Virus record (IMG/VR): IMGVR_UViG_3300005264_000098
Location: 1-24,505 of that record
DNA from: a virus
Reading direction: 5' to 3' (one strand)
DNA: 24,505 nt
Each line of letters begins with the position of its first letter. Positions within the stretch are counted from its first letter, which is position 1. The position numbers and the translations under genes are program-made. This document shows positions 3-24,505 of this stretch, in pieces. Below the pieces are notes generated by a model. It did not search any database, was not told where the DNA came from, and saw only the letters and a list, made by a program, of their open reading frames with translations.

Positions 3-308
3 AGGCAACTTAAAAGTTGGAGGAAATCTAAAAAAGGTAAAAGACAGCTTAGGCGTAATATTAACAAATGCCGTGAAAATACTCCCAAAAGAAAATTTAC
101 GTGCGCTTACTGTAATAAGTCTGTTATTACAAAACATCCAACAAAGAAATTCTGTTCGATTAAATGCAGAGATGCAATATCTGGAAAAATTAAAAAAGAA
201 TGTATTATGTGCGGAGAATTTTTCTGGACAAAACCACATAAAACAAGAGAAACTCAAACTTGTGGTTACAGGTGTGGATGGGAATTACGCAGAAGCAAAA
301 GTATATAA
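3..308 (+). CDS. C-terminal double zinc finger of an HNH-type homing endonuclease (5' partial), probably intein-borne
   Basis: Reading the plus strand from base 3 gives an open frame that enters from the left edge and stops at TAA 306-308. It is rich in Lys and Arg. It carries paired cysteines in a regular order: TCAYC, FCSIKC, ECIMC, TCGYRC, that is, two fingers of CxxC followed by CxxxC. This pattern is common at the C-terminus of phage HNH homing endonucleases, where it binds DNA; that is family knowledge. The frame starting at GTG 73 covers the same bases but gives non-descript sequence until about base 289, so I think frame 3 is the real coding frame up to about base 290-300. There it meets the intein C-terminal block, which lies one base out of register. 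It could be the tail of an endonuclease inserted in a terminase intein, frameshifted by one base, or a separate endonuclease gene overlapping a split intein half. The nuclease domain lies outside the window. Confidence 0.55.
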   Translation, partial: RQLKSWRKSKKGKRQLRRNINKCRENTPKRKFTCAYCNKSVITKHPTKKFCSIKCRDAISGKIKKECIMCGEFFWTKPHKTRETQTCGYRCGWELRRSKSI

Positions 309-453
309 TTTGACAACTGAACAATCAGGAATGTATTATGCAAATGGAATTCTTGTTTCAAATACGGATTTGGAAGATCATATAATGGATTCATTACGAT
401 ATCTTCTGGCAAGAAAATTAACTACATTTAAAAGACGAAAAGTGAGGAATTAA
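73..453 (+). CDS. terL: Terminase large subunit, C-terminal end, preceded by an intein C-terminal splice block (partial)
   Basis: The frame ending at TAA 451-453 is open to the left edge. A GTG at 73 is its first usable start codon, but I do not believe that start, because bases before about 289 read as junk here and as a zinc finger in frame 3. From 295 the protein shows a typical intein end (VYNL, then MYYANGILVSN) followed by Thr at +1. After the junction come TDLEDHIMDSLRYLL and a basic tail. This matches the last helix of the large terminase, where an Asp before SLRY is expected to be the final metal-binding residue of the RNase H-like nuclease that cuts packaged DNA. The intein therefore interrupts the gene just before an essential catalytic residue, a favoured intein position. 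The gene precedes the portal gene, as terminase usually does. The terminase identity is fairly secure; the exact N-terminal limit of the real product is not. Confidence 0.65.
   Translation: MKILPKENLRALTVISLLLQNIQQRNSVRLNAEMQYLEKLKKNVLCAENFSGQNHIKQEKLKLVVTGVDGNYAEAKVYNLTTEQSGMYYANGILVSNTDLEDHIMDSLRYLLARKLTTFKRRKVRN
295..363 (+). other. Intein C-terminal splice block (blocks F and G) inside the terminase gene
   Basis: Codons 295-363 encode AKVYNLTTEQ then SGMYYANGILVSN. The pattern VY(D/N)LT, about ten residues, then ANGILVxN is the hallmark of intein C-termini. The predicted cut is after Asn 361-363, with Thr (364-366) as the first extein residue. Thr, Ser or Cys is required at that site, so the chemistry is plausible. 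The penultimate residue is Ser instead of the usual His, which is unusual but known in some inteins. Confidence 0.7.
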
Positions 454-3184: not shown

Positions 3185-4618
3185 ATGCCCGCTAAACTTA
3201 CATCTTTAGAGTTTATTCAAAGAGCCACTAAAATTCACAAGAATTTGTATATTTATTCAAACTCAATTTATAGTGGTATGCATAAAAAATTAATTATTAT
3301 CTGTTATAAACATGGGGAATATTTACAATCTCCTGCAAATCATTTAGCAGGTAAAGGGTGTCCTAAGTGTAAAAATGAAAAAACATCCATTAGGTGCAAA
3401 CATTCCACATTAGATTTTATAACTAAAGCTCAAAAAATTCATGACGGTGTGTATGATTACTCCCAAGTTGTGTATAAGTTAGATAATCAGAAAATTACTA
3501 TATTATGTAAAGAACACGGGGAATTTACACAATCACCCCGATCGCATCTAAGCGGAAATGGGTGTCCTAAATGTGCTGGATTTAATTTGTCCACTGATGA
3601 ATTTGTGGAACAAGCAAATTTATTACATTCAAAGAAATATAAATATAGTAAGTTTAACTACACAAAATCAAAAACTCAGTCATTTATAATTTGCCCTATA
3701 CATGGGGAATATTTACAATCTCCTGAAGTACATTTACGAGGAAGTGGATGTCCTAAGTGTGTAGGACAAATTTCTAAGGAGGAAGTTCAGGTAGTTGATT
3801 TTTTAAAGTCCTTAAATGTTAAAGTTAAAACCAATAATAGAAGTATTATTGCTCCTAAAGAATTAGATATAGTATTGCCTGATTATAAAATTGCAATAGA
3901 ATACAATGGACTATACTGGCATTCTTCAGCAATTCCCAATTTTGATAAATATCATTTAAAAAGGAAGACTGAACTCTGCCAAAAGAAAGGATACAGATTA
4001 ATTCATATTTTTAGTGATGATTGGAAATTTAAAAAAGATATTATCAAATCAATTTTACGGAGTGTTGTAGATAAAATTGAATCGAAAATATTTGCGAGAA
4101 AATGTCATTGTAAATTAATTGATAAAAATAAAGCAAAAAAATTTCTAATAAAAAACCATATTCAGGGGTATGTAATAAGTTCTATGCATTTTGGTTTATT
4201 TTTCCAAAATAAACTGTTACAAGTTATGTCCTTTAAAAAAGATAAAGACTCGTTCAATCTTGTTCGATTTGCGTCCTGTTTAAATAGTCAAGTAATTGGT
4301 GGAGCAAGTAAATTATTTAAGCATTTTCAAAGAAGTGTTGAATTTTGTTCTGTGTATACGTTTGCGGATTTATCTACTTTTTCAGGAAAATTGTATAGTA
4401 TTCTTGGGTTTACAAAAGTAAAAGAAATTTTAATTGATTATTCGTATGTCTATCAAGGAAGACGTAGACATAAGTTTGGATTTCGTAGAAAAAGACTCAA
4501 ATCATTATTGAGTAATTTTGATGCAACTAAATCTGAATTATGGAATACTCGAAATAACTATATCTATAGAATTTATGATTGTGGAAAAACAAAGTATGAG
4601 TTTAAAGAAATATGTTGA
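3185..4618 (+). CDS. Free-standing homing endonuclease: three DUF723-type zinc ribbons and a Vsr-like nuclease (EDxHD family)
   Basis: This 477-residue protein starts at ATG 3185 after TGGAGATTT. Residues 1-192 hold three repeats (from about residues 10, 78 and 140), each ending in the exact spacing C-x2-H-x15-C-x2-C: C40/H43/C59/C62, C108/H111/C127/C130, C170/H173/C189/C192, with HGE(Y/F)xQSP and HLxGxGCPKC conserved. Residues about 205-275 hold the nuclease core: ELDIVLPDYKIAIEYNGLYWH, then YHLKRKTELC and HIFSDDW. This matches the Vsr-like homing endonucleases described with fractured phage genes. The last 200 residues (with GGASKLFKHFQ, TFADLSTFSG and YRIYDCG) are a conserved C-terminal region of the same proteins. 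Such enzymes cut a specific site in an allele lacking them and spread by repair. The gene is intergenic, the flanking scaffold and capsid genes are intact, and its DNA looks more AT-rich than theirs, so it is probably a mobile insertion. Confidence 0.85.
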   Translation: MPAKLTSLEFIQRATKIHKNLYIYSNSIYSGMHKKLIIICYKHGEYLQSPANHLAGKGCPKCKNEKTSIRCKHSTLDFITKAQKIHDGVYDYSQVVYKLDNQKITILCKEHGEFTQSPRSHLSGNGCPKCAGFNLSTDEFVEQANLLHSKKYKYSKFNYTKSKTQSFIICPIHGEYLQSPEVHLRGSGCPKCVGQISKEEVQVVDFLKSLNVKVKTNNRSIIAPKELDIVLPDYKIAIEYNGLYWHSSAIPNFDKYHLKRKTELCQKKGYRLIHIFSDDWKFKKDIIKSILRSVVDKIESKIFARKCHCKLIDKNKAKKFLIKNHIQGYVISSMHFGLFFQNKLLQVMSFKKDKDSFNLVRFASCLNSQVIGGASKLFKHFQRSVEFCSVYTFADLSTFSGKLYSILGFTKVKEILIDYSYVYQGRRRHKFGFRRKRLKSLLSNFDATKSELWNTRNNYIYRIYDCGKTKYEFKEIC

Positions 4619-9702: not shown

Positions 9703-12700
9703 ATGAGTGCTGATACAAGTAAAACGATAGAAATTGCTCTTAATGTCGTAGGAATGAGTGCAGCAAAAATTAAGAGCGTCACCAGTGCTTTTGATAAGAT
9801 CAAAACGGCTGTTGATACTACGATTACGGCTGTTGATAATCTTCAGTCAGCATTAAATAAAGTAAAAGCTCCCCCAAAGTTAGCTGCATTCACAGCGTCG
9901 TTAAATGCCATAAGTAAAATTAAAGATTTTAAGGGTTTAACAAAATTTTCTGAAAGTGTTCAAGCATTATCATCTACAAAAATTCCGAGTATTGCCCGAT
10001 TTGTCACTTCGCTTACAAAATTATCGGGCATAACAATCCCAAATTTAACAGCACTCATTAGGAATTTAGGGAAACTAGCAGAGCTTGAGTTAAAAAATTT
10101 TAATTCTCAGGTTAATATAATTGTTAAAGGTCTTAAAAAATTAACGGAAATAAGTACATCCAGATTAGAAAAGATTGCAAAATCTTTAGAAGTGTTAAGT
10201 AAAGTTAGTTTAAACAAAGCCGTGAATGATGCCAAAAAACTTACTGATGCATTAAAGAAATTAGAAAAAACTGCACAAACTACTGGAGTTAGGCTTAAAG
10301 GTTTTAAACAAAAAGTTGAAACTGTTTTTCAATTCAGATTAATTTCCCAAGCTTTACTTTTCTTAAAAGATGGAATTATAAATGCAGTAATCGCAATAGG
10401 GCAATACGATCAAGCTTTGAAGGATTTACAGGCGATTACGGGGGCAACGACTACTGAAATTGCTCAGATGGGTACTAAAATTCTTGAGGTTGCTTCTAAG
10501 ACAAAATTTTCAGCGAGTGAAGTTGCAGAAGGAATGAGAATAATTGGACAGGCTGGTTTTTCTGCGGGTGAAGCTGTAGAAACAATGCAGGCTGTTTCTG
10601 ATCTTGCAACTGGTACTTTGTCTGCAATGGCTTCTACAGTTGATTTAGTTACAACTGCAATGAGAGTTTTTTCAATAGAAGCTACTCGATCTTCAGAAGT
10701 TGCGGATACTTTTGCAAACGCAGTCAATAAATCAAAACTGACTGTAGATAAACTCCGTACATCCATGAACTATATTGGACCTATTGCTAAATCAGCCGGA
10801 GTTACATTTCAAGAATTATCTGCTTCTATGATGGTTCTTGCAAATTCTGGTTTACGTGCCAGTAAGATTGGTACTGGTCTTCGTAGAGTATTTGCTGAAT
10901 TAGTTGATCCTTCTAAAAAATTACGTGAGGCCGCAAGGAATGCGGGTGTTGCTTTAAGTGACTTAGACCCTCAATCAACTAATTTATCGACTGTAATTAA
11001 AAACCTTGGATTAGTTGTAAATGATACTCAGGTTGCCTTTGATGTATTTGGAAAACGTGGTGCTGCCGCAGTTCTCACATTATCTAATTCTCAAAGTGCT
11101 TTTGATGAAATGTTACAGACTGTTCAGAAGTCTGGAACTGCTGCTAATATGGCTTCTATCCAAATGGAAGGTCTTGCAGTTTCTTTTAAAAATTTAAAAG
11201 ATAAGTTAGGTCTTTTGGCTATTGCAATCGGTAAAGCGGGTATTGCGGATGCGATGAAGATGTTGGTAGATATTGCCCGAAATTTAGTTGATGTTTTAAC
11301 GTTCTTGATTGATAACACCCTTGTTGAATTTCTTGGTAAAGCTGTTCTTGTAACTGGGGCACTTTTTGGAATTCTTGCCGCATTAAAAGCACTTTTGGCA
11401 GTTGAAACTTTTGTAATATTGGGAGCCGCATTTGCAAAGTTGACAGCCGCTGCCACAGGAACGGCAGTCGCAGTAGGAGCAGTAGGAGCTACTGCACATG
11501 CGGCTTTTCCTCCTCTACTAGTAATTTCTGGGATTATAGCTGCAATTGCGGGGGGAATGTATATGCTTTCTGATAGATCAAAAAAAGCTTCAGATGAGGC
11601 TTTAAAATTAGCTTCTGAGTATAAGAATCTTGGCACGCATATGCGAGATTACGAAGCTAAAGTTAGTACGATGAAGGCAGGTTCAAATGAATTAAAAGAA
11701 GCCAATATTGCTTTACGGACAAAATTAATGGATGTTGCAAAGGAATATGATGAGTTGTCTATTTATGCATTTAAAGCGGTTCATGCAATAAACCCATTAA
11801 CAGGATATATTGATGATAATTCGACAGCACTAGCAACTTTAAATGAAAAAATTAAAGAATTACGTATGACAGAATTGGCGGAATCTGTTGAAGAATCAAA
11901 TAAATCATTTGCAAAACAGACCGGATTTATTAAGCGTATTTTTAACCAATTTGGGGATGTTGCAAAAACAGCGAAATTAATTTTTACTGACAATGATGCG
12001 TATCAACATTTACGCAAAATAAGACAAGAAGCACATCAAATGTCCATAGATTTACATTCGGGAGTAAAAAACTTTGCTGATCTACACAAATACATAGCTA
12101 AGATAGATCATAAAAACCTAACAGCACAACAAGAAGTATTAAAAGAGCAATATATTTCTATGATGTTCAATGCTACTACATGGTATGAAACTTTAAAAAA
12201 TTCAGGGGAAATATCATTAACTAATACAGTTGAGGAAATCAGTAATATAGCTGCTAGTGCTGGACTTACGGGGCAAAGCTTGGAAGCCTTACTAGTTTAT
12301 ATTGATGAATTAAAACAATCAGGAGTAGGTGATTATGAAACTATAATTGATAAATGGGCACATGATGCCAAAGAAGGAAAACAACTCCTTTCAAGTCACA
12401 TTGAAGATTATAAAAAATTAGGTCTTGTGATTGCCGATGCCGATGCATCACGACTTAAATTTGCAGAAGGACAAAAACAAGCTCTGATGGATAGTAGGAA
12501 GGCTTTAGAAGATTGGAAAAATGGTCAGATCAGTAGCGGAAACGAATCTAAAGAAATGTGGGAAAAGTATTACAAAGACCTTGCTCAGTTAGAAGTAGAA
12601 GCTCGTAAAGTTACGGCTGATCAAGCACAGCATGAATCCACTCAAACCATGCTTGCTATAGAAAAGGAATTAGCGGCACATGCTGACAAACTTGCTAAGA

Positions 12701-15700
12701 TTGAAAAAATGGAAAATACTTCCTTGCAAGTTAGAGCGAAAAAAAGACAGCAAGCCAATACTGAACTTGAAAAAAACTTAGCAAGCATAACTAAAAATTC
12801 TTTCGATCCTCAAGAACTTCTTGCTGCAACAAAAGAGCAAGAACTTATTATAAAGAACAGTTATAAACGCCAACAATCAATGATAGAATTGAGTCTAATA
12901 GAACGTGGTGAATCCCATGCAACAATAACAGAGGAACTTAAAAAATTAGAATTGCAGTCATCTAAAGAAGTTGTTGATTTGTGGAGAAAAGCAAACCAAA
13001 CAATCGTGGATCAAGGAAACCCGGATACAAATCCAAATGTAAGAAGTATTAAGGCAAAACAATTGGCTGCGGAATTAGCGCATGTAAAAGCAACATCAGC
13101 CGCCAGAATACAGCTTATGGAAGAGGGAATAAAACAACAAAATCAATTATATGAAGATGCCAATATTCAACGAGAACTTAACCATACTGAATTTTTGGCT
13201 AGAATGGTTAAGCAGGAAATGGCATCGGGCACTGCGACGGAAGAAATTGAAAAGAAAAAATTAAAACTATCTTTAAAATTAGCAGAAGATAGGTTAGTAG
13301 CGACTCAACATCATTTTGATGAGGCTAAAGAACTTTATAAACAGGATTCAGAGGAGTACAAATCTCGACAGGAAGAATTTCTTTCGGCACGTATTGCTTT
13401 TTTAGAGGAAAGTCTCGCTTATACTGAAAAGTATGCCCAGTTGGAGTACGCAGTTGAAAAAGCTAAAATAGAAGCTGTTATTCAATTGGATAAAGCTATA
13501 CATGCTTCTGACAGTGCGGTACAAAAGGCTCGAATAGATTCAGCTAAGACGATTCTAAAAGCTTCATATGATAGTATGCGTATAACTCATCAAAAGTATT
13601 ATGCTACAAAAAAAGCTGATCAAGAACAATCATTTCGTGATGAAGTTGCTATTTTAAAAAAATTAAGGGCAAAACATAAAGCTGAGTTAGAGAATCTGCA
13701 TAATATTGCAGTATCAGAAAAAGAACGAACAGAAACTAAACTCAGGTTAGATAAAACTGTTCTCTCTATAACAACTGAAATTAGAAAACTTCAAGAAGCT
13801 CAACCCGGAGTTCTGGCGGCGATTGATGCGGCGGAATTAAAAGCAATTGATACGTCTGAGAAAAAGATAGCTTCTATACTTAAACAGTTCAGAACTATGA
13901 AATCTGCATCTGATATTGAGTTGTTCAGTTCTTCCGGTGATTTAAAGAAACAACAAAAAGTTCAAATGGATTCTCTTAAAGCTGTTACTGATGAAAAATT
14001 ACGATTATTAAAAATAGCAGTAGATCGGGATTTAAGTTCAACTAATGAATTAAAGGAAGCCAAAAAAATAGCGGATCGCTTAATAAATAATTTACGTGAG
14101 AAACATGGAAAAGAACGTTTGGAACAAACCCTAAAAGATCAAGATACGGAATTTGAATCATTTCGAGTTAAATCTGAACTTGCTCATACCAAAAGTTTAG
14201 AGGAAATGGTAGCAAGAGAATTAAAAGCTGGTACTTCTTTTGAGAATATTGAAAAGAAGAAAGCAAAGATGGCTCTTGATTTTTTAGAGGAACGTAAAAT
14301 TGCGGCAGAAAAACATTTTGAGAATGCAAAACTCCTTTATAATAAGGATTTGGACGCATATAGACAAAGACAGGATGATGCTGCAAAAGCAAGTGAAGCT
14401 TTTTATAAGACCCGTCTTGGGTATACAGAGAAATATGCTAAACTTGAGTACAATATTGAACGAAATAAAATAAAATCTATTATAGAGTTAAATAGAGCAA
14501 CGTACACTCGGGATAGTAAATTACAACAAGTAGCAATAGATAATTCATTAAAAATGCTTAAAGCATCTTATAATAGTAAAGCAGTAGCACACGAAGCGTA
14601 TTATGATGGACTGCATAACACTGCTAATAAAAATCACCAGGAGGATTTAGACCGTTTACGAGTCTTAGAACAGGCACAAACGTATCAGCTTGCTCAATTA
14701 AGAGCATCTTCTAAAAAAGGGATAGATACTACGAATGCTCAAGCTTTGGCAGAAAAAGAGTTAGGTGCAATTCGAGAAGAAAGGAAACTATTAGAAGCAA
14801 ATCTTCCGGGAATACTGGCAGGAATTGATGTGGCACGTCTTAAATCCATAGACACATCTAACAAAAGTATAGATTCTATAACTAACCAAATTAAAAAATT
14901 AACATCAACTTCGGAAATGAATTTATATGGTAATCCTGGTGAGTTAGAAAAAGCTCATAAGATACAAATGGCAAATCTTGAAGAGATTATCAAGACAAAG
15001 AGAGATGCTTTAGAACAAGAAGTTAGGTTAAACCCAGAAAGGAAGGGTGCGTTAGCGAATGCCGAAGCTCAGTTTATAGCAATGAGGAATAATTTAGATG
15101 CCAAACAACAACAGGAAAAACACGAACGTACATTAAAATATCAAGATATGGCTTTTGATAGTTTCAAAAAGAAATCAGCTTTACAACATTCGGCTAGATT
15201 GAAAGAAATTGCAAAAGAGCAAGTAGCGGGCGATATTACAAAAGATGAAGCAGAAAAACAGGAGTTGCTGGCTAAAGTCGCACATTTTAAAAGAATATAT
15301 GTTGAAGCGGTAAAACATCAGGACAAACTTACTGATTTAGATAGTGACGACTCGATTAAGGCCAGACTTGATAAAACATTATCTGCCCATAAGAAGTATT
15401 ATGATGCTCTAAAAGAGTTAAAGTTAGGAAGTGCTGAAATTGATGAAGAAATGGATAAAGCGAGATTTGAGGCGGCTTTGGATAAATCAAAATCAGATTC
15501 TGATTTAAGTATGCTTAAACAAACGGAAGCTACTAAAACTGCCCTTGACGAAAATAAATCTTTACTTGATCAAGGTCTTATAGATGCACAGGAGTATTAT
15601 GATGAAAGGAATAGAATTGCGAAAGAGGATATTCATAAGCAATTAGATATTCTTGATGCTGAAGAAAAAATTTTTAAAGCTCGAATGAAATTACAAATTG

Positions 15701-16812
15701 CGAAGAGTGATGGGAAAGAAAAAATAGATTTAGAAAAAAAATTAAGTGCTGTATTGAAGGCAACAGAAGCGGAAAGAGTAAAATTTACAGAGGGGTATAA
15801 TAGGGAAGTAATACAAAATGATACAGCAAAATTTAAGGATATGGAAGAAAATATAAAAAGATTTGATGTTATATTTAAACAAGCTGCTATGGATCGTATG
15901 GCAGTTGCTGAAGAAGAATGGCGATTAGGCATAATTAGTGCTAAAGAGTATTCGGAGGCGGTAGAAGCGGCATTTTTGGTAGGCAGTTTGAGTGCTGAAG
16001 AATTTCGTAAAAAGAAATTACTCGCTGATGGGGACGTATTTAAGAACTTTGAAGAGGGCGTTAAAAATGGGATGAAAGGAGTTCAGACTCTTAATGAGTT
16101 CATGCAATCTGCTGGAGAGGAGATGTTCAACGCATTTGGTACGGGCATGGCGGATGCAATGTATGGATTTGTCAGTGGCACTAAATCAGCAAAAGAAGCT
16201 TTTGGTGATTTTGCCGCTTCTTTCATGCAAATGGTGACTAAAATGATTATAAAGATGATGGTTATGAAAGCATTACAATCTGTATTTGGTATGGGTATGG
16301 CTGAAGGTGGAGAGGTTCCCGCAGCCGGAAGTTATACAGCAGGTGCTACGACTAGTCTTGCTTCAGGTGGAGAAATTCCGGGATTCTCTCCAACATCAAC
16401 TGCGGATAATATCCCTATTTTAGCAACTGCAGGTGAATATATGCAACCTGTCAGTGCTGTTAAAAAATATGGTATGCGTGTTATGAATGCTATACGAACT
16501 CTGAGTATCCCAAAAAAATCTTTAACTAATTTAATCCAAGGGACAGCATTAGGATTAGGTGCCCCGCTCCCATCTTTTGCATTGGCTAGTGGGGGTAGTG
16601 TTCCTGCATCTAATTTTCAATCTTCCAGTGTTGGAGATATTGTTAAAGCAATGAAAAATTCAAAAGAGAAAGCGACCCCGGTAACTATTATGAATGTAGT
16701 AGACCCAAAAGAAATGCTACATAGTGCATTGGCAACACCAGAAGGGCAAGGGGCATTATTGAATTTCGTTAGCGCAAGATCAGGCACTATATCGACTATT
16801 TTAAAACAATGA
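9703..16812 (+). CDS. Tape measure protein, very long (TP901-type core)
   Basis: This 2369-residue protein starts at ATG 9703, with GGGGAG upstream. Residues about 235-460 (YDQALKDLQAITGATTTEIA, FSASEVAEGM, QAGFSAGEA, SMNYIGPIAKSAGV and later FDVFGKRGAAAVLTL) are the TP901-type tape measure core. Residues about 530-625 are very hydrophobic (VLVTGALFGILAALKALLA and LLVISGIIAAIAGGMYML) and could enter the host membrane during DNA delivery. Residues about 700-2180 are long charged coiled coils, including a 334-residue repeat (see repeat entry). The C-terminus is Gly/Ser/Ala-rich with GGEIPG and ADNIPILATAGEYMQPVSAV, a typical tape measure ending. The protein sets tail length; at about 0.15 nm per residue it predicts about 350 nm. 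It follows the chaperones and precedes tail tip genes, as in lambda. Confidence 0.92.
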   Translation: MSADTSKTIEIALNVVGMSAAKIKSVTSAFDKIKTAVDTTITAVDNLQSALNKVKAPPKLAAFTASLNAISKIKDFKGLTKFSESVQALSSTKIPSIARFVTSLTKLSGITIPNLTALIRNLGKLAELELKNFNSQVNIIVKGLKKLTEISTSRLEKIAKSLEVLSKVSLNKAVNDAKKLTDALKKLEKTAQTTGVRLKGFKQKVETVFQFRLISQALLFLKDGIINAVIAIGQYDQALKDLQAITGATTTEIAQMGTKILEVASKTKFSASEVAEGMRIIGQAGFSAGEAVETMQAVSDLATGTLSAMASTVDLVTTAMRVFSIEATRSSEVADTFANAVNKSKLTVDKLRTSMNYIGPIAKSAGVTFQELSASMMVLANSGLRASKIGTGLRRVFAELVDPSKKLREAARNAGVALSDLDPQSTNLSTVIKNLGLVVNDTQVAFDVFGKRGAAAVLTLSNSQSAFDEMLQTVQKSGTAANMASIQMEGLAVSFKNLKDKLGLLAIAIGKAGIADAMKMLVDIARNLVDVLTFLIDNTLVEFLGKAVLVTGALFGILAALKALLAVETFVILGAAFAKLTAAATGTAVAVGAVGATAHAAFPPLLVISGIIAAIAGGMYMLSDRSKKASDEALKLASEYKNLGTHMRDYEAKVSTMKAGSNELKEANIALRTKLMDVAKEYDELSIYAFKAVHAINPLTGYIDDNSTALATLNEKIKELRMTELAESVEESNKSFAKQTGFIKRIFNQFGDVAKTAKLIFTDNDAYQHLRKIRQEAHQMSIDLHSGVKNFADLHKYIAKIDHKNLTAQQEVLKEQYISMMFNATTWYETLKNSGEISLTNTVEEISNIAASAGLTGQSLEALLVYIDELKQSGVGDYETIIDKWAHDAKEGKQLLSSHIEDYKKLGLVIADADASRLKFAEGQKQALMDSRKALEDWKNGQISSGNESKEMWEKYYKDLAQLEVEARKVTADQAQHESTQTMLAIEKELAAHADKLAKIEKMENTSLQVRAKKRQQANTELEKNLASITKNSFDPQELLAATKEQELIIKNSYKRQQSMIELSLIERGESHATITEELKKLELQSSKEVVDLWRKANQTIVDQGNPDTNPNVRSIKAKQLAAELAHVKATSAARIQLMEEGIKQQNQLYEDANIQRELNHTEFLARMVKQEMASGTATEEIEKKKLKLSLKLAEDRLVATQHHFDEAKELYKQDSEEYKSRQEEFLSARIAFLEESLAYTEKYAQLEYAVEKAKIEAVIQLDKAIHASDSAVQKARIDSAKTILKASYDSMRITHQKYYATKKADQEQSFRDEVAILKKLRAKHKAELENLHNIAVSEKERTETKLRLDKTVLSITTEIRKLQEAQPGVLAAIDAAELKAIDTSEKKIASILKQFRTMKSASDIELFSSSGDLKKQQKVQMDSLKAVTDEKLRLLKIAVDRDLSSTNELKEAKKIADRLINNLREKHGKERLEQTLKDQDTEFESFRVKSELAHTKSLEEMVARELKAGTSFENIEKKKAKMALDFLEERKIAAEKHFENAKLLYNKDLDAYRQRQDDAAKASEAFYKTRLGYTEKYAKLEYNIERNKIKSIIELNRATYTRDSKLQQVAIDNSLKMLKASYNSKAVAHEAYYDGLHNTANKNHQEDLDRLRVLEQAQTYQLAQLRASSKKGIDTTNAQALAEKELGAIREERKLLEANLPGILAGIDVARLKSIDTSNKSIDSITNQIKKLTSTSEMNLYGNPGELEKAHKIQMANLEEIIKTKRDALEQEVRLNPERKGALANAEAQFIAMRNNLDAKQQQEKHERTLKYQDMAFDSFKKKSALQHSARLKEIAKEQVAGDITKDEAEKQELLAKVAHFKRIYVEAVKHQDKLTDLDSDDSIKARLDKTLSAHKKYYDALKELKLGSAEIDEEMDKARFEAALDKSKSDSDLSMLKQTEATKTALDENKSLLDQGLIDAQEYYDERNRIAKEDIHKQLDILDAEEKIFKARMKLQIAKSDGKEKIDLEKKLSAVLKATEAERVKFTEGYNREVIQNDTAKFKDMEENIKRFDVIFKQAAMDRMAVAEEEWRLGIISAKEYSEAVEAAFLVGSLSAEEFRKKKLLADGDVFKNFEEGVKNGMKGVQTLNEFMQSAGEEMFNAFGTGMADAMYGFVSGTKSAKEAFGDFAASFMQMVTKMIIKMMVMKALQSVFGMGMAEGGEVPAAGSYTAGATTSLASGGEIPGFSPTSTADNIPILATAGEYMQPVSAVKKYGMRVMNAIRTLSIPKKSLTNLIQGTALGLGAPLPSFALASGGSVPASNFQSSSVGDIVKAMKNSKEKATPVTIMNVVDPKEMLHSALATPEGQGALLNFVSARSGTISTILKQ
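13183..16188 (+). repeat. Internal 1002-base (334-residue) repeats in the tape measure gene
   Basis: Three matching points recur at exactly 1002 bases. The H-(T/S) motif before a Lys/Glu helix has its His codon at 13183, 14185 and 15187. (Y)TEKYAxLEYxxE begins at 13420 and 14422. PGxLAxID begins at 13804 and 14806. Units 1 and 2 align without gaps over most of their length; unit 3 (from 15187) keeps the start (KEIAKEQVAG for ARMVKQEMAS) and diverges after about 100 residues. They are seen at protein level, not as near-identical DNA, so they are old duplications. The end given (16188) is the nominal end of a third unit. Confidence 0.75.
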
Positions 16813-17501: not shown

Positions 17502-18800
17502 ATGGCAATTGATTGGCAAAATACTTCATCGTTTGATTTTTTCGATACGTCTATTGAGTGGCATTCCCCGTGGGAAACTGATTTTTTTTCTGTACTATTA
17601 ACCCCCAGTGAATATTTGTTAGATGCTCCTGACTGGGCAGAGGATGTTAATTTAAGGAAAACATGGAAGACGAATGTTCGGGATTCAATAGTTGGTGAGG
17701 AAACCCGTTCAGCGTTGTATACTTTTTCGAGAACTACTTTAGAGTTCAGTTTGTCTTCAATGACATCACTTGAATCTCAAAGATTAACTCGAAAAATATA
17801 TAAAAATTTACATAAAGTTTGGGCAGTGCCGTACTGGATGGATGTGACAACTTTGTCTACAGATGCTGCAAGTACTGAATATACTGTAACTCTTACGGAT
17901 ATCTCGTATGCCACATTAAAAGTAGGATCACAATGTGCAATTTTTAATGATCCAGATACATTTGAGATAGGTACAATTAAAATCATTTCTGGTAATACGA
18001 TTACACTCGTGATGCCTTTGGGATTAGATTGGAGTGCGGGGTCTACATTTGTCCCCTTATTAAAAGGGATGTTAACCCCTTCTCAGAGCTTGCAATATGT
18101 TACGGATTCATCGAATGTATTATCGTTTAAAATCAAGGAAGTAGTTGATCCAAATATCACCCAAATTGCAGGCAGTTCAGCATATTCTACCTATGAGGGG
18201 CATGATCTTTTTACTCTGTCTCCAGATTGGAGTGGAGAGAGGGAATTTTCTTATGCTCATCCCTATACACAGATGCAATTTATTGGTGTGGGTTATCATG
18301 ATTCTTCCTTGTTAGAAACAAAAATTAAAATAACAGATCGGTACTTATTTGCCACCAGAAGTGAATTGGCTGATTTTTTAGCCTTCTTTGACTACAAGAA
18401 AGGTTGTTGGGGGAATTTTTGGCTTTCCTCCAATAATACTGATATAAATATAGTCGCTCCCTTTGATGCTACAGATACTGATTTAATTATTTCTCCAATT
18501 GATTGGGATATATATTGGACAGGTAATGTATCTACGGGGAAATATATAAATATACAATTTGCAGATGGAACATCTATTCAACGAGAAATAGTAAGTGTTC
18601 CCAAATTAAATAATGTAATAACTTTGGATTCTGCTATTGGAAGAACTGCAACTAGTGCAGAAGTACAATACGTAAAAGTATCATTTTTATATATGGTGCG
18701 GTTTGCATTAGATGAAATAGCGATTAAGTTTGAAACTGATACTGTTGCTTCAACTGAAATTAGTTTTGAACTTCTTCCAAATATGGAGATTTCAGCATGA
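17502..18800 (+). CDS. Distal tail protein-like (gene transfer agent gp12 position)
   Basis: This 432-residue protein starts at ATG 17502, touching the previous TAA. The region is rich in Trp, Tyr and Phe. It opens SSFDFFDTSIEWHSPWETDF; the middle (about 95-210) reads WAVPYWMDVT then beta strands; residues about 285-310 read ATRSELADFLAFFDYKKGCW and GNFWLSSNN. The RxELxxFLxFFDxxxGxWGxFWLPS-like stretch is close to a motif I know from the distal tail/DUF2460 family of gene transfer agents and siphoviruses, and the gene order (this, DUF2163, NlpC/P60, tip attachment) is the same as there. Distal tail proteins make the hexameric ring at the end of the tube on which the hub is built. It ends in a four-base overlap (ATGA) with the DUF2163 gene, so translation is coupled. 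Confidence 0.65.
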   Translation: MAIDWQNTSSFDFFDTSIEWHSPWETDFFSVLLTPSEYLLDAPDWAEDVNLRKTWKTNVRDSIVGEETRSALYTFSRTTLEFSLSSMTSLESQRLTRKIYKNLHKVWAVPYWMDVTTLSTDAASTEYTVTLTDISYATLKVGSQCAIFNDPDTFEIGTIKIISGNTITLVMPLGLDWSAGSTFVPLLKGMLTPSQSLQYVTDSSNVLSFKIKEVVDPNITQIAGSSAYSTYEGHDLFTLSPDWSGEREFSYAHPYTQMQFIGVGYHDSSLLETKIKITDRYLFATRSELADFLAFFDYKKGCWGNFWLSSNNTDINIVAPFDATDTDLIISPIDWDIYWTGNVSTGKYINIQFADGTSIQREIVSVPKLNNVITLDSAIGRTATSAEVQYVKVSFLYMVRFALDEIAIKFETDTVASTEISFELLPNMEISA

Positions 18801-19621
18801 AAGAATTATCTACTGAATATATAGCATTAGATGAATCAGACAAAAGACAGCCTTTTGAACTTTACCATATTTGGGTTGAGGGTGGTAATCATTGGAGATA
18901 TACAAGTGGTGATTCTGTGGTTACGTATAATGGAGATATTTACACTCCTGCAACATTGCAACGTGGTGGAATCCGTTATGATGAAAAACTCGGAACAATG
19001 AGTTTATCCATTACAGCAGCCTTTATTCATGAACCAGTTATTCAATTTTTAGCGGCTAACCATACGGATGTTATTTGGATTCAATTAATGAAATTGTTTC
19101 GAGATCAAGCACCCTATGAGGCATCTAATTTGTTTACTGGCACAGTAAAGAGTGTTGCCATTAAAGGTGTACAAGGGACAGTTACGTGTACTGGATTCGA
19201 ATATTTCTTAAAGCGTAATATACCACGAAAAACATATTCCCCATCATGTAATTCGTTTTTATTTGAAGCGGATCAATGTATGTTAAATGCATCTGTATAT
19301 GCATTCGCTGCAACACTAACTTCTATATCTTCAGATGGTACAGTTATACAAAGTGATGAATTTGCCACAAAACCTGATGGTTGGTTTACACTTGGATCAG
19401 TATCCGTTGGTAGGGATAAGAGGATGATTATTAAACATATAGGGGATACTATTCATCTAAGGACACGTATTTTCATTGCAGTAGGTTCTATGGTTACTGC
19501 ATACCCAGGATGTACTGGCTCAATTGAGATGTGTTATGCTAAATTTAATAATATTGTAAATTTTAGAGGATTTCCTATGATTCCTATAGATAATCCGATA
19601 CGTTGGAGTGGGAAAGTATAA
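18797..19621 (+). CDS. Tail hub protein, DUF2163 (gene transfer agent gp13-like)
   Basis: This 274-residue protein starts at ATG 18797 after GGAG. The first part has FELYHIWVEGGNHWRYTSGD, VVTYNGDIYTPATLQRGGI and strand repeats. The second part reads YSPSCNSFLFEADQCMLNAS, then SGxxG-type strands and YPGCTGSIEMCYAKFNN followed by FRGFPMIP. The order C-N-x-x-L-F-E-x-x-x-C, then PGC-x(6)-C-x-x-K-F-x-N-x-x-N-F-R-G-F-P-x-I-P is the DUF2163/BR0599 signature. The proteins form part of the hub at the tail tip. Length matches the family (about 270-300). The last four cysteines may pair as in other members. It overlaps the next gene by one base (TAATG), so the next start is coupled. Confidence 0.85.
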   Translation: MKELSTEYIALDESDKRQPFELYHIWVEGGNHWRYTSGDSVVTYNGDIYTPATLQRGGIRYDEKLGTMSLSITAAFIHEPVIQFLAANHTDVIWIQLMKLFRDQAPYEASNLFTGTVKSVAIKGVQGTVTCTGFEYFLKRNIPRKTYSPSCNSFLFEADQCMLNASVYAFAATLTSISSDGTVIQSDEFATKPDGWFTLGSVSVGRDKRMIIKHIGDTIHLRTRIFIAVGSMVTAYPGCTGSIEMCYAKFNNIVNFRGFPMIPIDNPIRWSGKV

Positions 19622-19899
19622 TGTATTATTTTGAACCCGATAAACGCAAAGAGATGTTACAGAAAGAACTACTGGCTTGGGTGGGCACTCCATATAGACA
19701 TCAATGCAGGATCAAACAAGTCGGAGCAGATTGTATTGGTATTTTATTATATAAATTTGGAAAAATATCTTCACATGCCGGAGTATACTGTAACGGATAT
19801 GTTTTCCAATCTGTTTCTAGGCATTCAGTGGCTAAAATAAGGGTACAGGATAGGCTGTGGTACCCAAGATTAACCTTTGTTTTTAGGATATTAGACTAA
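19621..19899 (+). CDS. Miniature NlpC/P60-type tail peptidase with an internal deletion
   Basis: A TTG at 19603 could add six residues, but ATG 19621 overlaps the previous TAA and has GGAG upstream, so I start there, giving 92 residues. It reads LLAWVGTPYRHQCRIKQVGA then DCIGILLYKFGKISSHAGVY, and ends with WYPRLTFVFRILD. The W-x-GTPYRH, G-x-DC (catalytic Cys) and SHAG-x-Y (catalytic His) motifs are typical of the NlpC/P60 peptidases found at the tail tip (gp14-like), which cut cell-wall peptides during entry. Family members are usually about 140-150 residues: here the roughly 45-50 residues normally found between DCIG and the LLYKFGK strand are missing, in frame. Both main catalytic residues remain, so it may be a compact enzyme or a degraded one. 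Family assignment is good; activity is uncertain. Confidence 0.75.
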   Translation: MYYFEPDKRKEMLQKELLAWVGTPYRHQCRIKQVGADCIGILLYKFGKISSHAGVYCNGYVFQSVSRHSVAKIRVQDRLWYPRLTFVFRILD

Positions 19900-20924
19900 T
19901 GGGTGATTCATCATTTGGACAACTTTTTGGGTTTGCTGTTGGGGCGTTAGTTGGGTATTTTTTCCCCGGTGGGGGACACCTACTAATGAATATGTTTATG
20001 GGAGCATCAATTGGAATGGCAGTTGGTGGAATGATTGATCCTCCTAGCTATGATTCCCCCGATGCTGGTCAACCTGAGTTACAAGATATTTCTATAACTA
20101 TGGCTTCTGAGGGAGCAGTAATTCCAGAAGTACTGGGTACAACAAAAATAACTGGCAATGTATTGCACTATTGGGGATCACGTAATACGGCGCATATGGC
20201 AGAACATGATGGACAAGAATACGAATCGGGCCGTGATTATTATCTTTCATGGATTCAAGGAATATGTATGGGTCCAGTGGATACATTGTATGCTATTTAT
20301 CTAGATGAAAATATTGTTTGGTACGGGGAAGCAGCCAGACCAGAAAATGGACAATTTGAAACAGTGCTTTGTCAAGAATTAGACACTCGTGGAGAATACG
20401 ACACAGAGACTAGTTCTCATACTGAATTAACTGTTAATTCAGGGCTGACTTACGGGAATCTTCATTTTTATTTTGGAACAGATAACCAAGAAGTGAATGA
20501 AAACATAGAAGATACGGGAGAAAATCGAAACATCCCATACAGAGGGGTATGTTATGCATATTTTGATGATTTTCAGATTGGGCAGTATAATAGAGCACCA
20601 ATCGTAAAGTTTATAGTTGGTAAATACCCAGAATTGCCGTTTAACCCATATCACAAATTGAACACATTTGATTATAATCCTGCCCATGCAATTTATTATA
20701 CACTTGTAAATTTAGCATATGTGCCATCTTCGTTTATAGACGAGGAATCTTTTTCCGAAGTAGCTACTTTATTGTATGAGGAAGGTGTTGGGATGGGGAT
20801 ATTAATAAATAAACCAGCTTCTGCTATTAGTTATATTAGTAAAATTTTATTCTCATTTGATGTTATGACTTATTACGGTGATGGTGGAAAAATCTATTTA
20901 AGGTTGATAAGGGAGGATGAGTGA
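19899..20924 (+). CDS. Tip attachment / tail hub protein, N-terminal part (gp15/J-like), truncated
   Basis: This 341-residue protein starts at ATG 19899, overlapping the previous stop by one base. It begins with a Gly/Ala/Met hydrophobic segment (GFAVGALVGYFFPGGG, then GASIGMAVGGMI), typical of the start of large tip attachment proteins. It continues QPELQDISITMASEGAVIPE and VLGTTKITGNVLHYWGSRNT, a segment I know from the same family (GAxIPxVYGxxKIxGNVIW). Later come VNLAYVPSSFIDEESFSEVA and FDVMTYYGDGGKIYLRLIRED. Members run to 700-1200 residues; this one ends at TGA 20922-20924 just after LRLIREDE. In intact relatives the chain continues with a segment ending NEVKVRY, which is exactly what starts the next gene (GTGA overlap, -1 frame, preceded by GGGAGG). 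So the hub appears split into two polypeptides. Confidence 0.75.
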   Translation: MGDSSFGQLFGFAVGALVGYFFPGGGHLLMNMFMGASIGMAVGGMIDPPSYDSPDAGQPELQDISITMASEGAVIPEVLGTTKITGNVLHYWGSRNTAHMAEHDGQEYESGRDYYLSWIQGICMGPVDTLYAIYLDENIVWYGEAARPENGQFETVLCQELDTRGEYDTETSSHTELTVNSGLTYGNLHFYFGTDNQEVNENIEDTGENRNIPYRGVCYAYFDDFQIGQYNRAPIVKFIVGKYPELPFNPYHKLNTFDYNPAHAIYYTLVNLAYVPSSFIDEESFSEVATLLYEEGVGMGILINKPASAISYISKILFSFDVMTYYGDGGKIYLRLIREDE

Positions 20925-23281
20925 TCTCTTTAACTGACAATGATTTTGTAAAGGAACCCAATTTTAGTCGAAATACTATATCGGCTACCACTAATGAGGT
21001 TAAAGTTAGATACCCATTACGTACGGGTACCATTGCTATTACACCATATTATTTATATAGTACTGGACATAATTCTTATGGGACTTTAGGGTTAGGTGAT
21101 AATACTAAAAGAGATAGATTTACTTTAGTTGATGTAGAGGAAACTACCATTACGCAAATGTCTGGCGGAAATGGGTATATGATGATTTTAAAGTCAGATG
21201 GCACTTTATGGAATACATTTATTCAGGTTGGAACGGACACGAATTGGGCATCAGTGAATTGTGGTCCAGGGTATCAAACGTTTGCTTTTAAAACAGATGG
21301 AACTCTTTGGGGTACAGGAGCGAATAGTTGGGGACAATTGGGACTTGGTAGTTGGGTTCATCGAACTGTATTTACACCTATTCCAGGAGATTGGGCATCA
21401 GTATATGGTGGAGAATTATATACTATGGCATTAAAAAGTGATGGCACTCTTTGGGGAACAGGGATGAATGGGGAAGGTGCGTTAGGAGTTGGTGATTGGA
21501 CTAAAAAAAATGTATTTACTCAAGAAAAAACATTAGCTACAGATTGGACTCATGTTTCTTCTGGTAGTCCAGCACATACATTTGCGTTTAAAACTGATGG
21601 GACGGTGCATGGCACAGGCTTCAATAATTGCGGGCAATTAGGATTTCAAAATACAACTTACTGGTTAAATGAATTTACTGAAATTCCAGGATCGACTGGT
21701 TTTACATTTATAACTTGCGGGTATTACCATTCTATGGCACTAAAGAGTGATGGGACTATTTGGGGTTGTGGTGAAAATTATAGTGGGGAATGTGGCGTAG
21801 ATCATGATGATGAGGTGTGGGGTTTTACTCAAGAAAGTACTCTGGCTACTGATTGGGAATCTTTGGATTCTGGAGATTCTCATACCGTTGCAAAGAAGAG
21901 AAATGGCAATCTTTGGAGTACTGGGGATGGTTATCATGGTGCATTGGGTCTTGGAGATTATAATAATAGATATCGTTTTAATTTAATATTAAGTGAAAGT
22001 GGTGTGCCTTGGACTATGTATGAATGCACCGGATACAGTACATTCGGAATTGGTAGTCCTGCACCCATTCCTATACCCCCACCTGAATTGGTTTTTGGGG
22101 GAAATAATTATGGTGGGCCGTTTGGTAATGGGGATTGGCATGGCACTGTTGATGAATACACAAGTCATGCTCCTCCATTGCGAGATATTAAAAAAATAGA
22201 AGGTGGGTATGATGTCTGTGCTATTTTAAAAGAAGATGGCACAATTTGGAGTGCTGGGGATAATTCATATGGGTATTGTGGATTGGGTTATTTCACTCAA
22301 ACATATAGCTCATCAAATGGATATTCTATAACGGAATTCACTCAAGAATGCTTGGGTCATACTGATTGGGTTGATATATGGTCTGGGCAGTCTTTTGTAC
22401 TGGCCCTTAAAGCTGACGGTACGTTATGGGGAGTTGGTCATAATGGAGAATATAATTTAGGAATAGGGGAACCTTCATGGCCTTGGCATCGACACACTTA
22501 TACTCAAATCGGTACGGATACTGATTGGGTATCCGCAGGAGCAGCTTGGTCGCATTCTTTCGGAATAAAAGAAAATGGTACATTGTGGGCATGGGGCGAC
22601 ATGAGTGCTGGACAGTTAGGACTTGGGTATATGACACCAAGTAGGGCAAGTATATCTACTCCTATTCAAGTGGGAACTGATACTGATTGGGCAATGGCAA
22701 CAGGTGGGGATACACCCTCCATTGCATTAAAACAAGATGGAACATTATTGAGTTGTGGACCTAATGATTATGGTGAATGTGGAGTTGGGTATTTTGAGAA
22801 TCCATACCAACCAGATCAATACGGATGTATTTATACTTTTACGGAAGCTGTTGAAAGTGATGGCAATGGCGGGACTCAACCGTGTGGACCTGTCTTTGCA
22901 AATGCTACTCATTTTTGGCATTCTACTATGGCTGTTAAGAAAGATGGTACATTATGGGCAGTGGGGCAGAATTATGATCATCAATTAGGTATTGGACATA
23001 ATGATTGGACGAATATATGTGTATTTACTCAAGTGGGAACAGATACAGATTGGGATAGAGCAGAAGCATGTGATGGGATATTTATTATTAGAAAAACAGA
23101 TGGTTCTTTATGGGGAACTGGGTGTGATTGGGGTGGAATGTTTGGTTTTGATACATCTGAATATGAGTACGGTGAATTACGGACTCCGCAACGATGTGGT
23201 GCAATAGGAAGTGACGATACATTTTTGTCTGTATTTTCTTGTGTGGCACATGGTATATTGGCAATGAGGATTAATAAATGA
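20921..23281 (+). CDS. Hub-anchor module fused to two seven-bladed RCC1-like beta-propellers
   Basis: This 786-residue protein starts at GTG 20921 in a four-base overlap with the hub gene and after GGGAGG. Residues 1-37 (ISLTDNDFVKEPNFSR, TNEVKVRYPLR) look like the continuation of the tip attachment protein. From about residue 45 the chain is RCC1-type repeats of about 50 residues: LKSDGTLWGTGxNxxGxLGxG followed by FTxxxTDTDWxxVxxG. Motifs GHNSYGTLGLG, GANSWGQLGLG, GMNGEGALGVG, GFNNCGQLGF, GENYSGECGV and GDGYHGALGLG plus one shortened blade make a first propeller. After a Pro-rich linker (PAPIPIPPP, about residues 379-388) seven more make a second (GGNNYGGPFGNG to GCDWGGMFGFD). RCC1 propellers bind protein or other ligands; at a tail tip they may be receptor-binding domains. 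The role is inferred. It ends in an ATGA overlap with the next gene. Confidence 0.75.
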   Translation: MISLTDNDFVKEPNFSRNTISATTNEVKVRYPLRTGTIAITPYYLYSTGHNSYGTLGLGDNTKRDRFTLVDVEETTITQMSGGNGYMMILKSDGTLWNTFIQVGTDTNWASVNCGPGYQTFAFKTDGTLWGTGANSWGQLGLGSWVHRTVFTPIPGDWASVYGGELYTMALKSDGTLWGTGMNGEGALGVGDWTKKNVFTQEKTLATDWTHVSSGSPAHTFAFKTDGTVHGTGFNNCGQLGFQNTTYWLNEFTEIPGSTGFTFITCGYYHSMALKSDGTIWGCGENYSGECGVDHDDEVWGFTQESTLATDWESLDSGDSHTVAKKRNGNLWSTGDGYHGALGLGDYNNRYRFNLILSESGVPWTMYECTGYSTFGIGSPAPIPIPPPELVFGGNNYGGPFGNGDWHGTVDEYTSHAPPLRDIKKIEGGYDVCAILKEDGTIWSAGDNSYGYCGLGYFTQTYSSSNGYSITEFTQECLGHTDWVDIWSGQSFVLALKADGTLWGVGHNGEYNLGIGEPSWPWHRHTYTQIGTDTDWVSAGAAWSHSFGIKENGTLWAWGDMSAGQLGLGYMTPSRASISTPIQVGTDTDWAMATGGDTPSIALKQDGTLLSCGPNDYGECGVGYFENPYQPDQYGCIYTFTEAVESDGNGGTQPCGPVFANATHFWHSTMAVKKDGTLWAVGQNYDHQLGIGHNDWTNICVFTQVGTDTDWDRAEACDGIFIIRKTDGSLWGTGCDWGGMFGFDTSEYEYGELRTPQRCGAIGSDDTFLSVFSCVAHGILAMRINK

Positions 23282-24505
23282 TTTCTTTATCAGATACTAA
23301 TTTTTTGGAGCACCCTACTCTTTCCAGAGATACTATAATTTCTACGATTAATGAAGTTAAAGTTAGATATCCATTAAGAGTCGGTACTAATACTGATAAT
23401 AGTTTATGGAAAACCATTACTGTTTGTGGTGAGGGAACGAGTACGTTTGCGATTGATAGAGATGGTCATATGTGGAGTTGGGGGAGGAGTGCTTATTATG
23501 ACGTAGGACAGGGAGATTATCAGCTTATTCCCCGTAATTATACATATTCTCGATACACGATACCAGAAAATTATCTTGTAGTTAAACCAAGGTTAGTTTA
23601 TACAAACACTGGTGAGATTAAAGACGATTGGGTAAAGATAACTCGTGGTGAATCTTCTACAATGGCAATGGATTCTTCTGGGCAGTTATGGGGCTGTGGG
23701 ATGGGTAGTTTTTCTAATGAAGATACTGCTAACTGCGCTACTTTTGGACTCCCTCAAGATAGTGGTAATGATGAATTTGAATGGCAAGATGGCGTTGACC
23801 CAAGAGTAGCCCATCAATATTATTTCTTTAAAATGACGGAAGTAGTTCCAGGGTTTGTGGCTAAGGATTTTGTCTGTAATACTTATTATACCTTATTACT
23901 TGGTACTGATAATCTTGTTTATTGGGTAGGTACTGATGATGTATATAGTACTTCTGGACAACCTGAAAATTTTTTTAGTCCTGATTGGGATGAATATAAT
24001 GTAATTACACCAACAAGAATTGTAGGACTTAATGATGAAGTGAAATTCTTAATGCTCGATGGTGGTTTTACATATGATATTGCAGGATGTGTTACCATGG
24101 ATAATAAAGTTCTTATATGGGGATATGGCGCATCTTATCTTATTGATGAATATGATTACGAGAGTCCAATAACAGATGTATCTGCTGGCTTGCCTTCTGG
24201 GGTAAATGTTGTTTCTTTTTATGGAGCCAGTTGGTGGAATCTTACAGTACTTCTTGCTAATGGAGATGTTTATGTACTTGGAACTTCTTATGCATTTGAT
24301 GACGGGCCTGGATGGTATCCTGAATTTACAAAGATACCAGGATTATCAAATATAGTATCAATTGATGGAAGTCAAACTTCTGCTTGTGGTATTGACTCAA
24401 CAGGTGATCTTTATACTTGGGATTATGGAGATTATCAGAACGGTTTGGATGATGAGGGATGGGGTGATTCTCACCCATTGCCTGAGATTTCTACTGTTGG
24501 AACTA
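23278..24505 (+). CDS. Second hub-anchor plus RCC1-like propeller gene (3' partial)
   Basis: ATG 23278 overlaps the previous TGA by four bases. The frame is open to the right edge (409 codons visible). Residues 1-37 are homologous to the start of the gene before it: 24 of 37 residues agree, with NEVKVRYPLR and GT identical. The rest reads as at least six divergent RCC1-like blades: FAIDRDGHMWSWG, MAMDSSGQLWGCG, LLLGTDNLVYWVG, CVTMDNKVLIWGYG, VLLANGDVYVLG and CGIDSTGDLYTW. The blades are less regular than in the preceding gene and lack most G-x-N-x-x-G-x-LG loops. It is a paralogue that kept the anchor and changed the propeller. No ribosome binding site as good as for the earlier gene is seen, so translation is probably coupled. 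The C-terminus lies outside the window. Confidence 0.7.
   Translation, partial: MISLSDTNFLEHPTLSRDTIISTINEVKVRYPLRVGTNTDNSLWKTITVCGEGTSTFAIDRDGHMWSWGRSAYYDVGQGDYQLIPRNYTYSRYTIPENYLVVKPRLVYTNTGEIKDDWVKITRGESSTMAMDSSGQLWGCGMGSFSNEDTANCATFGLPQDSGNDEFEWQDGVDPRVAHQYYFFKMTEVVPGFVAKDFVCNTYYTLLLGTDNLVYWVGTDDVYSTSGQPENFFSPDWDEYNVITPTRIVGLNDEVKFLMLDGGFTYDIAGCVTMDNKVLIWGYGASYLIDEYDYESPITDVSAGLPSGVNVVSFYGASWWNLTVLLANGDVYVLGTSYAFDDGPGWYPEFTKIPGLSNIVSIDGSQTSACGIDSTGDLYTWDYGDYQNGLDDEGWGDSHPLPEISTVGT

Follow-up and report, generated by a model that had tools for sequence, protein, structure and literature searches.

A tail-hub strand repeated as a putative anchor for different RCC1-like propellers in a phage with a divided hub gene

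The last three genes of a viral contig encode what appears to be a tail hub in pieces, that is, an N-terminal part closed by its own stop codon, followed by two genes whose products start with the same 37-residue module and continue into different RCC1-like regions. Judging from its alignment to related hubs, this module, called the anchor below, represents one strand of the hub itself, which is of the gpJ/megatron type, and we consider it likely that the hub is built from separate chains, with each anchor protein docking its propeller by strand complementation. The stretch of DNA analysed here, called the window, is the entire IMG/VR record IMGVR_UViG_3300005264_000098, with 24,505 bases, and terminates within a gene. 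It runs from the tail end of a possible terminase gene through the genes for the portal, the coat protein and the tape measure protein to those of the tail tip, where the gene of the hub N-terminal part (hubN) stands after the tape measure protein, the distal tail protein, the upper hub protein and an NlpC-like gene, the NlpC match being weak. The coordinates of the tail-tip features are collected in Table 1.

Several features of the upstream genes and of the tail-tip neighbourhood were recorded on the way. The first ORF of the window (73-453) has YYANGILVSNT and then DLEDHIMDSLRYLLARK at its end, which by eye resembles the C-terminal end of an intein in a large terminase, and a Pfam search of this intein-like end gave no match. 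An HNH-type homing endonuclease gene (3185-4618; phrog_559, 1e-116) separates the coat protein gene from a scaffold-like gene, and the tape measure protein (9703-16812) is very long, with 2369 residues and, by eye, diverged internal repeats of several hundred residues that a DNA repeat finder did not detect in the gene. The upper hub protein, whose best-matching IMG/VR relatives are 35-49% identical, served as the locus finder, and two loci (L005 and L006) have an NlpC/P60 gene at the position equivalent to that of the possible peptidase of the window.

Table 1. Tail-tip features of the window, with the basis of each assignment
Feature	Position	Strand	Basis
Upper hub protein, RcGTA "hub" Rcc01696 type	18797..19621	+	Phage_BR0599 and phiJL001_Gp84_N domains; Pfam and PHROG matches
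Possible NlpC/P60-type peptidase	19603..19899	+	NLPC_P60 14 bits, under cut-off (weak)
Hub N-terminal part (hubN), megatron/gpJ type, 341 aa, ending LRLIREDE	19899..20924	+	phrog_1101 8e-36; hubN profile 473 bits
GTGA stop/start overlap	20921..20924	+	sequence; AGGGAGG just upstream of GTG
ORF A, anchor and RCC1 propeller protein, GTG start, 786 aa	20921..23281	+	ORF call, Pfam, AlphaFold2, PDB matches
ORF A anchor, hub strand module, residues 1-34	20921..21022	+	anchor profile 55 bits; aligned to intact hubs
ORF A first RCC1 propeller, residues 44-378	21050..22054	+	28 strands, 7 blades; AlphaFold2 and PDB matches
ORF A second RCC1 propeller, less certain, residues about 411-732	22151..23116	+	Pfam RCC1 repeats; model confidence low to moderate
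ATGA stop/start overlap	23278..23281	+	sequence
ORF B, anchor and divergent RCC1-like protein, truncated at contig end after 409 aa	23278..24505	+	open frame to end
ORF B anchor, hub strand module, residues 1-34	23278..23379	+	anchor profile 62 bits

On its profile matches, the 341-residue protein is the N-terminal part of a gpJ/megatron-type tail hub: the phrog_1101 alignment covers profile positions 15-311 of 1405, and the protein also matches the hub of Pan1 (9e-20). The first-pass annotation, a reading made without database searches, had placed the end of this gene after LRLIREDE and had noted GTGA and ATGA overlaps at the two junctions that follow, all of which is borne out. ORF A and ORF B each overlap the preceding gene by four bases, and the codon directly upstream of their starts is, in its own frame, a stop (TGA and TAA, respectively), so that neither ORF extends upstream; together, the overlaps and the in-frame stops indicate real gene boundaries and not one broken frame read through. 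A frameshift or an assembly error was rejected as the origin of this arrangement, given that an in-frame stop precedes each start and that the same layout occurs in other contigs. Some of the hub splits seen in metagenomic contigs may stem from frameshift errors, but repeated anchors cannot.

The hub chain of the window is not continuous through the anchor strand and the conserved C-terminal part (C-part), with a stop at 20922-20924 and the anchor on two other ORFs. We nevertheless keep hubN in the gpJ/megatron family, because many close relatives likewise lack a continuous chain. The hub had been described beforehand as broken after its N-terminal part; the break holds, but a simple truncation does not, since relatives encode the conserved C-part, of about 460 residues, as a separate following gene. 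A profile search did not detect the C-part in the window, most likely because the contig ends, and it probably lies just beyond the right end. No contig that continues the window to the right was found: scans for close relatives with the hub and with ORF A gave no relatives, and a pattern search with back-translated NEVKVRYPL gave no match.

The two anchors are identical in 24 of 37 residues, while the best other 37-residue match between both proteins reaches only 16, in agreement with the original description of a shared start module. Their DNA is identical in 77 of 111 bases, with a dS of 0.85 and a dN of 0.30. The motif NEVKVRYPLR, taken at first as invariant, is so in the two window copies only, whereas relatives keep roughly N-[DE]-[VI]-K-[VI]-x-Y. 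Behind the anchor, RCC1 repeats and a seven-bladed fold are present in ORF A, according to Pfam, AlphaFold2 and PDB comparison (RCC1-like model match, 276 bits); the first propeller was modelled with a pLDDT of about 60-80 at its start and 80-94 across most of it, and it matches UVR8, HERC2 and RCC1 in the PDB. The incomplete ORF B scores 71 bits with WD40_RLD, under the cut-off of 150, and 22.8 bits with RCC1_2, just over the cut-off of 22. The anchor copies carry different propellers, as had been proposed, with a strong RCC1-like match in ORF A and a weaker one in ORF B. Their origin by tandem duplication and divergence is clear for the anchors, and for the propellers it could have been duplication or separate capture.

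About 200 related loci (numbered with an L here) were taken from IMG/VR, with the upper hub protein and both hub parts (N and C) as finders, and their ORFs were searched with profiles of the two hub parts and of the anchor. Aligned to the intact hubs of Pan1, Kimi and FoX4, the window hubN is continued directly by either anchor, and the score gains 1 to 12 bits when either one is appended. In the solved hub of Chi (8vjh), the sequence reads NEVVVTYHNPVMDED and then continues into the C-part without an insert, its strand NEVVVTYHNP directly preceding the conserved C-part, and dozens of IMG/VR contigs with intact hubs also have the anchor directly after the hubN break point. The first-pass claim that the module follows the break point in intact relatives is thus upheld in the Pan1, Kimi, FoX4 and Chi hubs. 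At 20 bits or more, the anchor profile had 105 matches inside hub ORFs, 25 in separate ORFs close to a hub and none elsewhere among 11,707 ORFs, some loci sharing a contig. The same annotation had conceded that the module might turn out to be a generic start of unrelated proteins, and we rejected the anchor as a generic N-terminus, since it occurs only in hubs and hub neighbours in this set. Over 15 separate gene starts, it keeps the hub pattern. The anchor is hub-derived, as first suggested, but not the free "plug" then envisaged, being one side of an insertion site within the hub and, by prediction, the strand that directly precedes the insert. ORFs with an anchor but no insert, about 60-80 residues long, were also seen (L160:2981-3151, L211:12524-12694, L109:3991-4170 and L213:5552-5785), and these may cap a hub site or be remnants.

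The structural setting of this site comes from an intact relative, L010, whose AlphaFold2 model has the anchor as a long strand (350-362, pLDDT about 90), followed by an unmodelled insert of about 215 residues (367-582) and by the C-part, which begins with another long strand (589-601); we read this model as placing the insert between two neighbouring hub strands. With its N-part, anchor and C-part, this fold, which belongs to the relative and not to a window protein, matches the hubs of JBD30 (Z 27.4) and Chi (Z 26.9), and in Foldseek and VIA searches those of JBD30, Chi, RcGTA, T5 and lambda with Z from 27 to 15. To judge from the alignments, the site after the anchor strand is a hypervariable insertion site: of 59 inserts found there, nine are RCC1, others are Kelch, BNR/sortilin-like or CBM96, and many are without a Pfam match. 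L180 and L181, which come from a single sample, share hub N-parts that are 92% identical in protein, and their hub DNA is 89% identical until 15 bases past the anchor, where the inserts become unrelated, with homology returning about 45 bases ahead of the C-part. The pair records a natural swap of the cassette lying between anchor and C-part. In the tandem copies of L137, homology likewise stops about 12 bases past the anchor, the N-parts being 77% and the inserts 26% identical. A comparison of related phages for gain, loss and swapping had been recommended at the outset, and all three are seen for the insert, L180 and L181 being one example of swapping.

Other loops of the hub also seem open to insertion, at hubN positions of about 230 and 285 and near 155-160, where the L106, L211 and L116 hubs have a further insertion point with an extra domain. 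The only genome match in the host search was L219:9878-13258, an intact related hub whose contig is part of a Candidatus Methanoperedens (archaeal) MAG, and its insert of about 290 residues is located at hubN position 285 and not after the anchor; this could be a virus of Candidatus Methanoperedens or a binning error.

The repetition of the variable unit is not confined to the window. Among 61 complete, hand-checked loci, 16 have a single-ORF hub, 33 a split hub with one variable unit and 12 two or three units, none of the multi-unit loci being among the 16 single-ORF hubs (Fisher value 0.017, shared ancestry ignored); the relatives were selected by similarity to the window, and these tallies are not population frequencies. 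The repeated unit is the whole N-part with its anchor and insert in L103 (three units) and in L137, L185 and L118 (two each), a shorter hub piece in L101, L204 and L209 (the last holding two units), and the anchor with its insert only in L211 (three) and in L106, L160, L161 and L008 (two each). Nearly every multi-unit locus has the C-part as one gene of its own; the exception is L161, in which it is fused to one of the anchors. In L008, the second anchor gene is placed after the C-part. In L008, L106, L160 and L211, of the anchor-and-insert group, the hub breaks off earlier, by one strand, than that of the window, and all of their anchor genes carry the extra strand KFKLKLLR..., as one would predict for an anchor that refills a fixed slot of the hub.

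In the hub N-part tree, the window falls in a supported group (95/94) holding all nine contigs with separate anchor genes, and the tandem copies outside this clade, as the tree has it, arose separately. The first copies of L103 and L102 cluster together, which implies that multiple copies persisted through phage divergence. By the substitution ratios, hub N-part copies diverge under purifying selection while the insert diverges faster, with a dN/dS of about 0.2 for the hub copies of L118 and about 0.5 for its propeller. The block concerned (L118:1193-8076) has the hub N-part and a propeller-like protein twice, with the upper hub and NlpC-like genes between them and N-parts that are 88% identical. 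Long poly-Ser or poly-Thr tracts were seen at the ends or linkers of tail proteins in L118, L160, L161, L009 and L116.

In the arrangement we favour, the hub would be encoded as a constant N-part (19899-20924), at least two interchangeable anchor proteins and one constant C-part to the right of the contig end. The site after the NEVKVRY strand, which in relatives would hold a fast-changing host-recognition domain, would be refilled by each propeller protein returning its anchor strand to the hub, in a split-domain complementation. Hubs of the gpJ/megatron kind form trimers where the tail ends (PMC7296036, PMC10276861, PMC11445458), so that as many as three propeller proteins, identical or not, could occupy one tip. 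Modelled alone with AlphaFold2, residues 1-43 of ORF A have no stable fold (pLDDT mostly 33-50), a low-confidence model of an isolated anchor that fits docking and is no demonstration of it; given such an anchor and a well-formed first propeller, two or more anchor proteins could give alternative or mixed propellers. For the window phage, we infer the co-assembly of these chains, their stoichiometry, the mixing of propellers and the downstream C-part, and the position of the propellers, the variety of the inserts and their swapping suggest that they bind host surface structures. The maximum number of units seen, three (L211 and L103), equals the number of hub subunits, which may be chance, there being two cases only. 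A more far-reaching version, in which two or three different anchor proteins complete one shared N-part and one shared C-part, single virions carry mixed propellers round the three-fold hub, and multiplication of the variable part became possible once the C-part had separated from the hub gene, is a tentative proposal that we rate slightly below an even chance.

Other explanations have to be weighed against docking of several anchor proteins in the hub. Only the first anchor gene might be built into the tail, the further copies being reserve cassettes swapped in by recombination via the anchor sequence. Anchor-bounded swaps did occur between related phages, as in L180 and L181, and the window anchors have 77 of 111 bases in common, but efficient homologous recombination is unlikely at 69% DNA identity, the copies are old and under purifying selection, the second anchor gene of L008 is located after the C-part, and ORF A and ORF B are both intact and overlap the preceding gene, as co-translation predicts. 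We regard such a reserve as unlikely. It is rather less probable still that the anchors attach their propellers away from the hub strand slot, for example, to the upper hub protein or a fibre, with only the shape of the strand being kept. The L161 locus speaks for this, since one anchor there is already fused to the C-part and a second anchor protein would need a free hub site, so that there may be more anchors than sites; against it, all 15 separate gene starts keep the hub pattern, and they keep the preceding strand as well in the loci that break earlier (L008, L106, L160 and L211).

The missing C-part of the window, together with the anchor-only ORFs of about 60 residues in L160, L211 and L109, could also be taken as signs of a decaying hub, broken by an insertion and followed by remnants. 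This we consider very improbable, given the long open frames with regular propeller blades, the gene starts exactly at the hub strand, the recurrence of the layout in several other contigs, and dN being lower than dS between copies. A hub completed by separate anchor proteins continues to be the reading we prefer.

The window proteins fall in known families, namely the gpJ/megatron hub and the RCC1 propeller. One of the closest described arrangements is that of the RcGTA megatron (Rcc01698) and the megatron of roseophage R4C, with the same gene order as in the window (tape measure protein, DUF2460 protein, hub, NlpC, megatron), an N-part homologous to hubN, and a three-fold baseplate bearing sugar-binding domains (PMC7296036, PMC10276861). 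In contrast to the window, that megatron is one continuous protein without a repeated strand module, and its large peripheral domain is inserted earlier, near hubN position 230. JBD30 gp53, the Chi hub, T5 pb3 and lambda gpJ share the same hub fold but are single-chain hubs, with Chi having the anchor sequence and no insert at the site, and in JBD30 separate receptor-binding protein trimers are attached at the hub C-terminus (PMC11445458). Whole megatron-type proteins are repeated in Caulobacter phage Colossus, where phiCbK gp99 has two counterparts, gp122 and gp123, that arose by duplication (PMC3556154), and in Erythrobacter phage XM05, where two hub-like proteins make a megatron-type duplication visible, unlike the window, in which an anchor strand carries different propellers. 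As for the first propeller of ORF A, it resembles UVR8, RCC1 and HERC2 in its repeat sequence and seven-bladed fold, but differs in being fused to a tail-hub strand, with no sign of a chromatin or photoreceptor role. The first-pass annotation knew of no described system with this exact layout; it does appear undescribed in the open-access literature searched, while duplicated hubs have a precedent in Colossus gp122/gp123. No account of different propellers being anchored by a reused hub strand was found in that literature, which is weak evidence, as most subscription papers lie outside it.

If true, this organization would mean that a highly conserved part of long tails can be dismantled and reassembled from several genes, and that phages can in this way keep several host-recognition modules behind a constant socket, with one tail perhaps carrying more than one kind. 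The insert between the anchor strand and the hub C-part marks an exact and naturally used exchange point of the hub, which makes the host-range evolution of uncultured phages legible from sequence, and it also accounts for those phage propeller proteins in tail operons that have been named "regulator of chromosome condensation".
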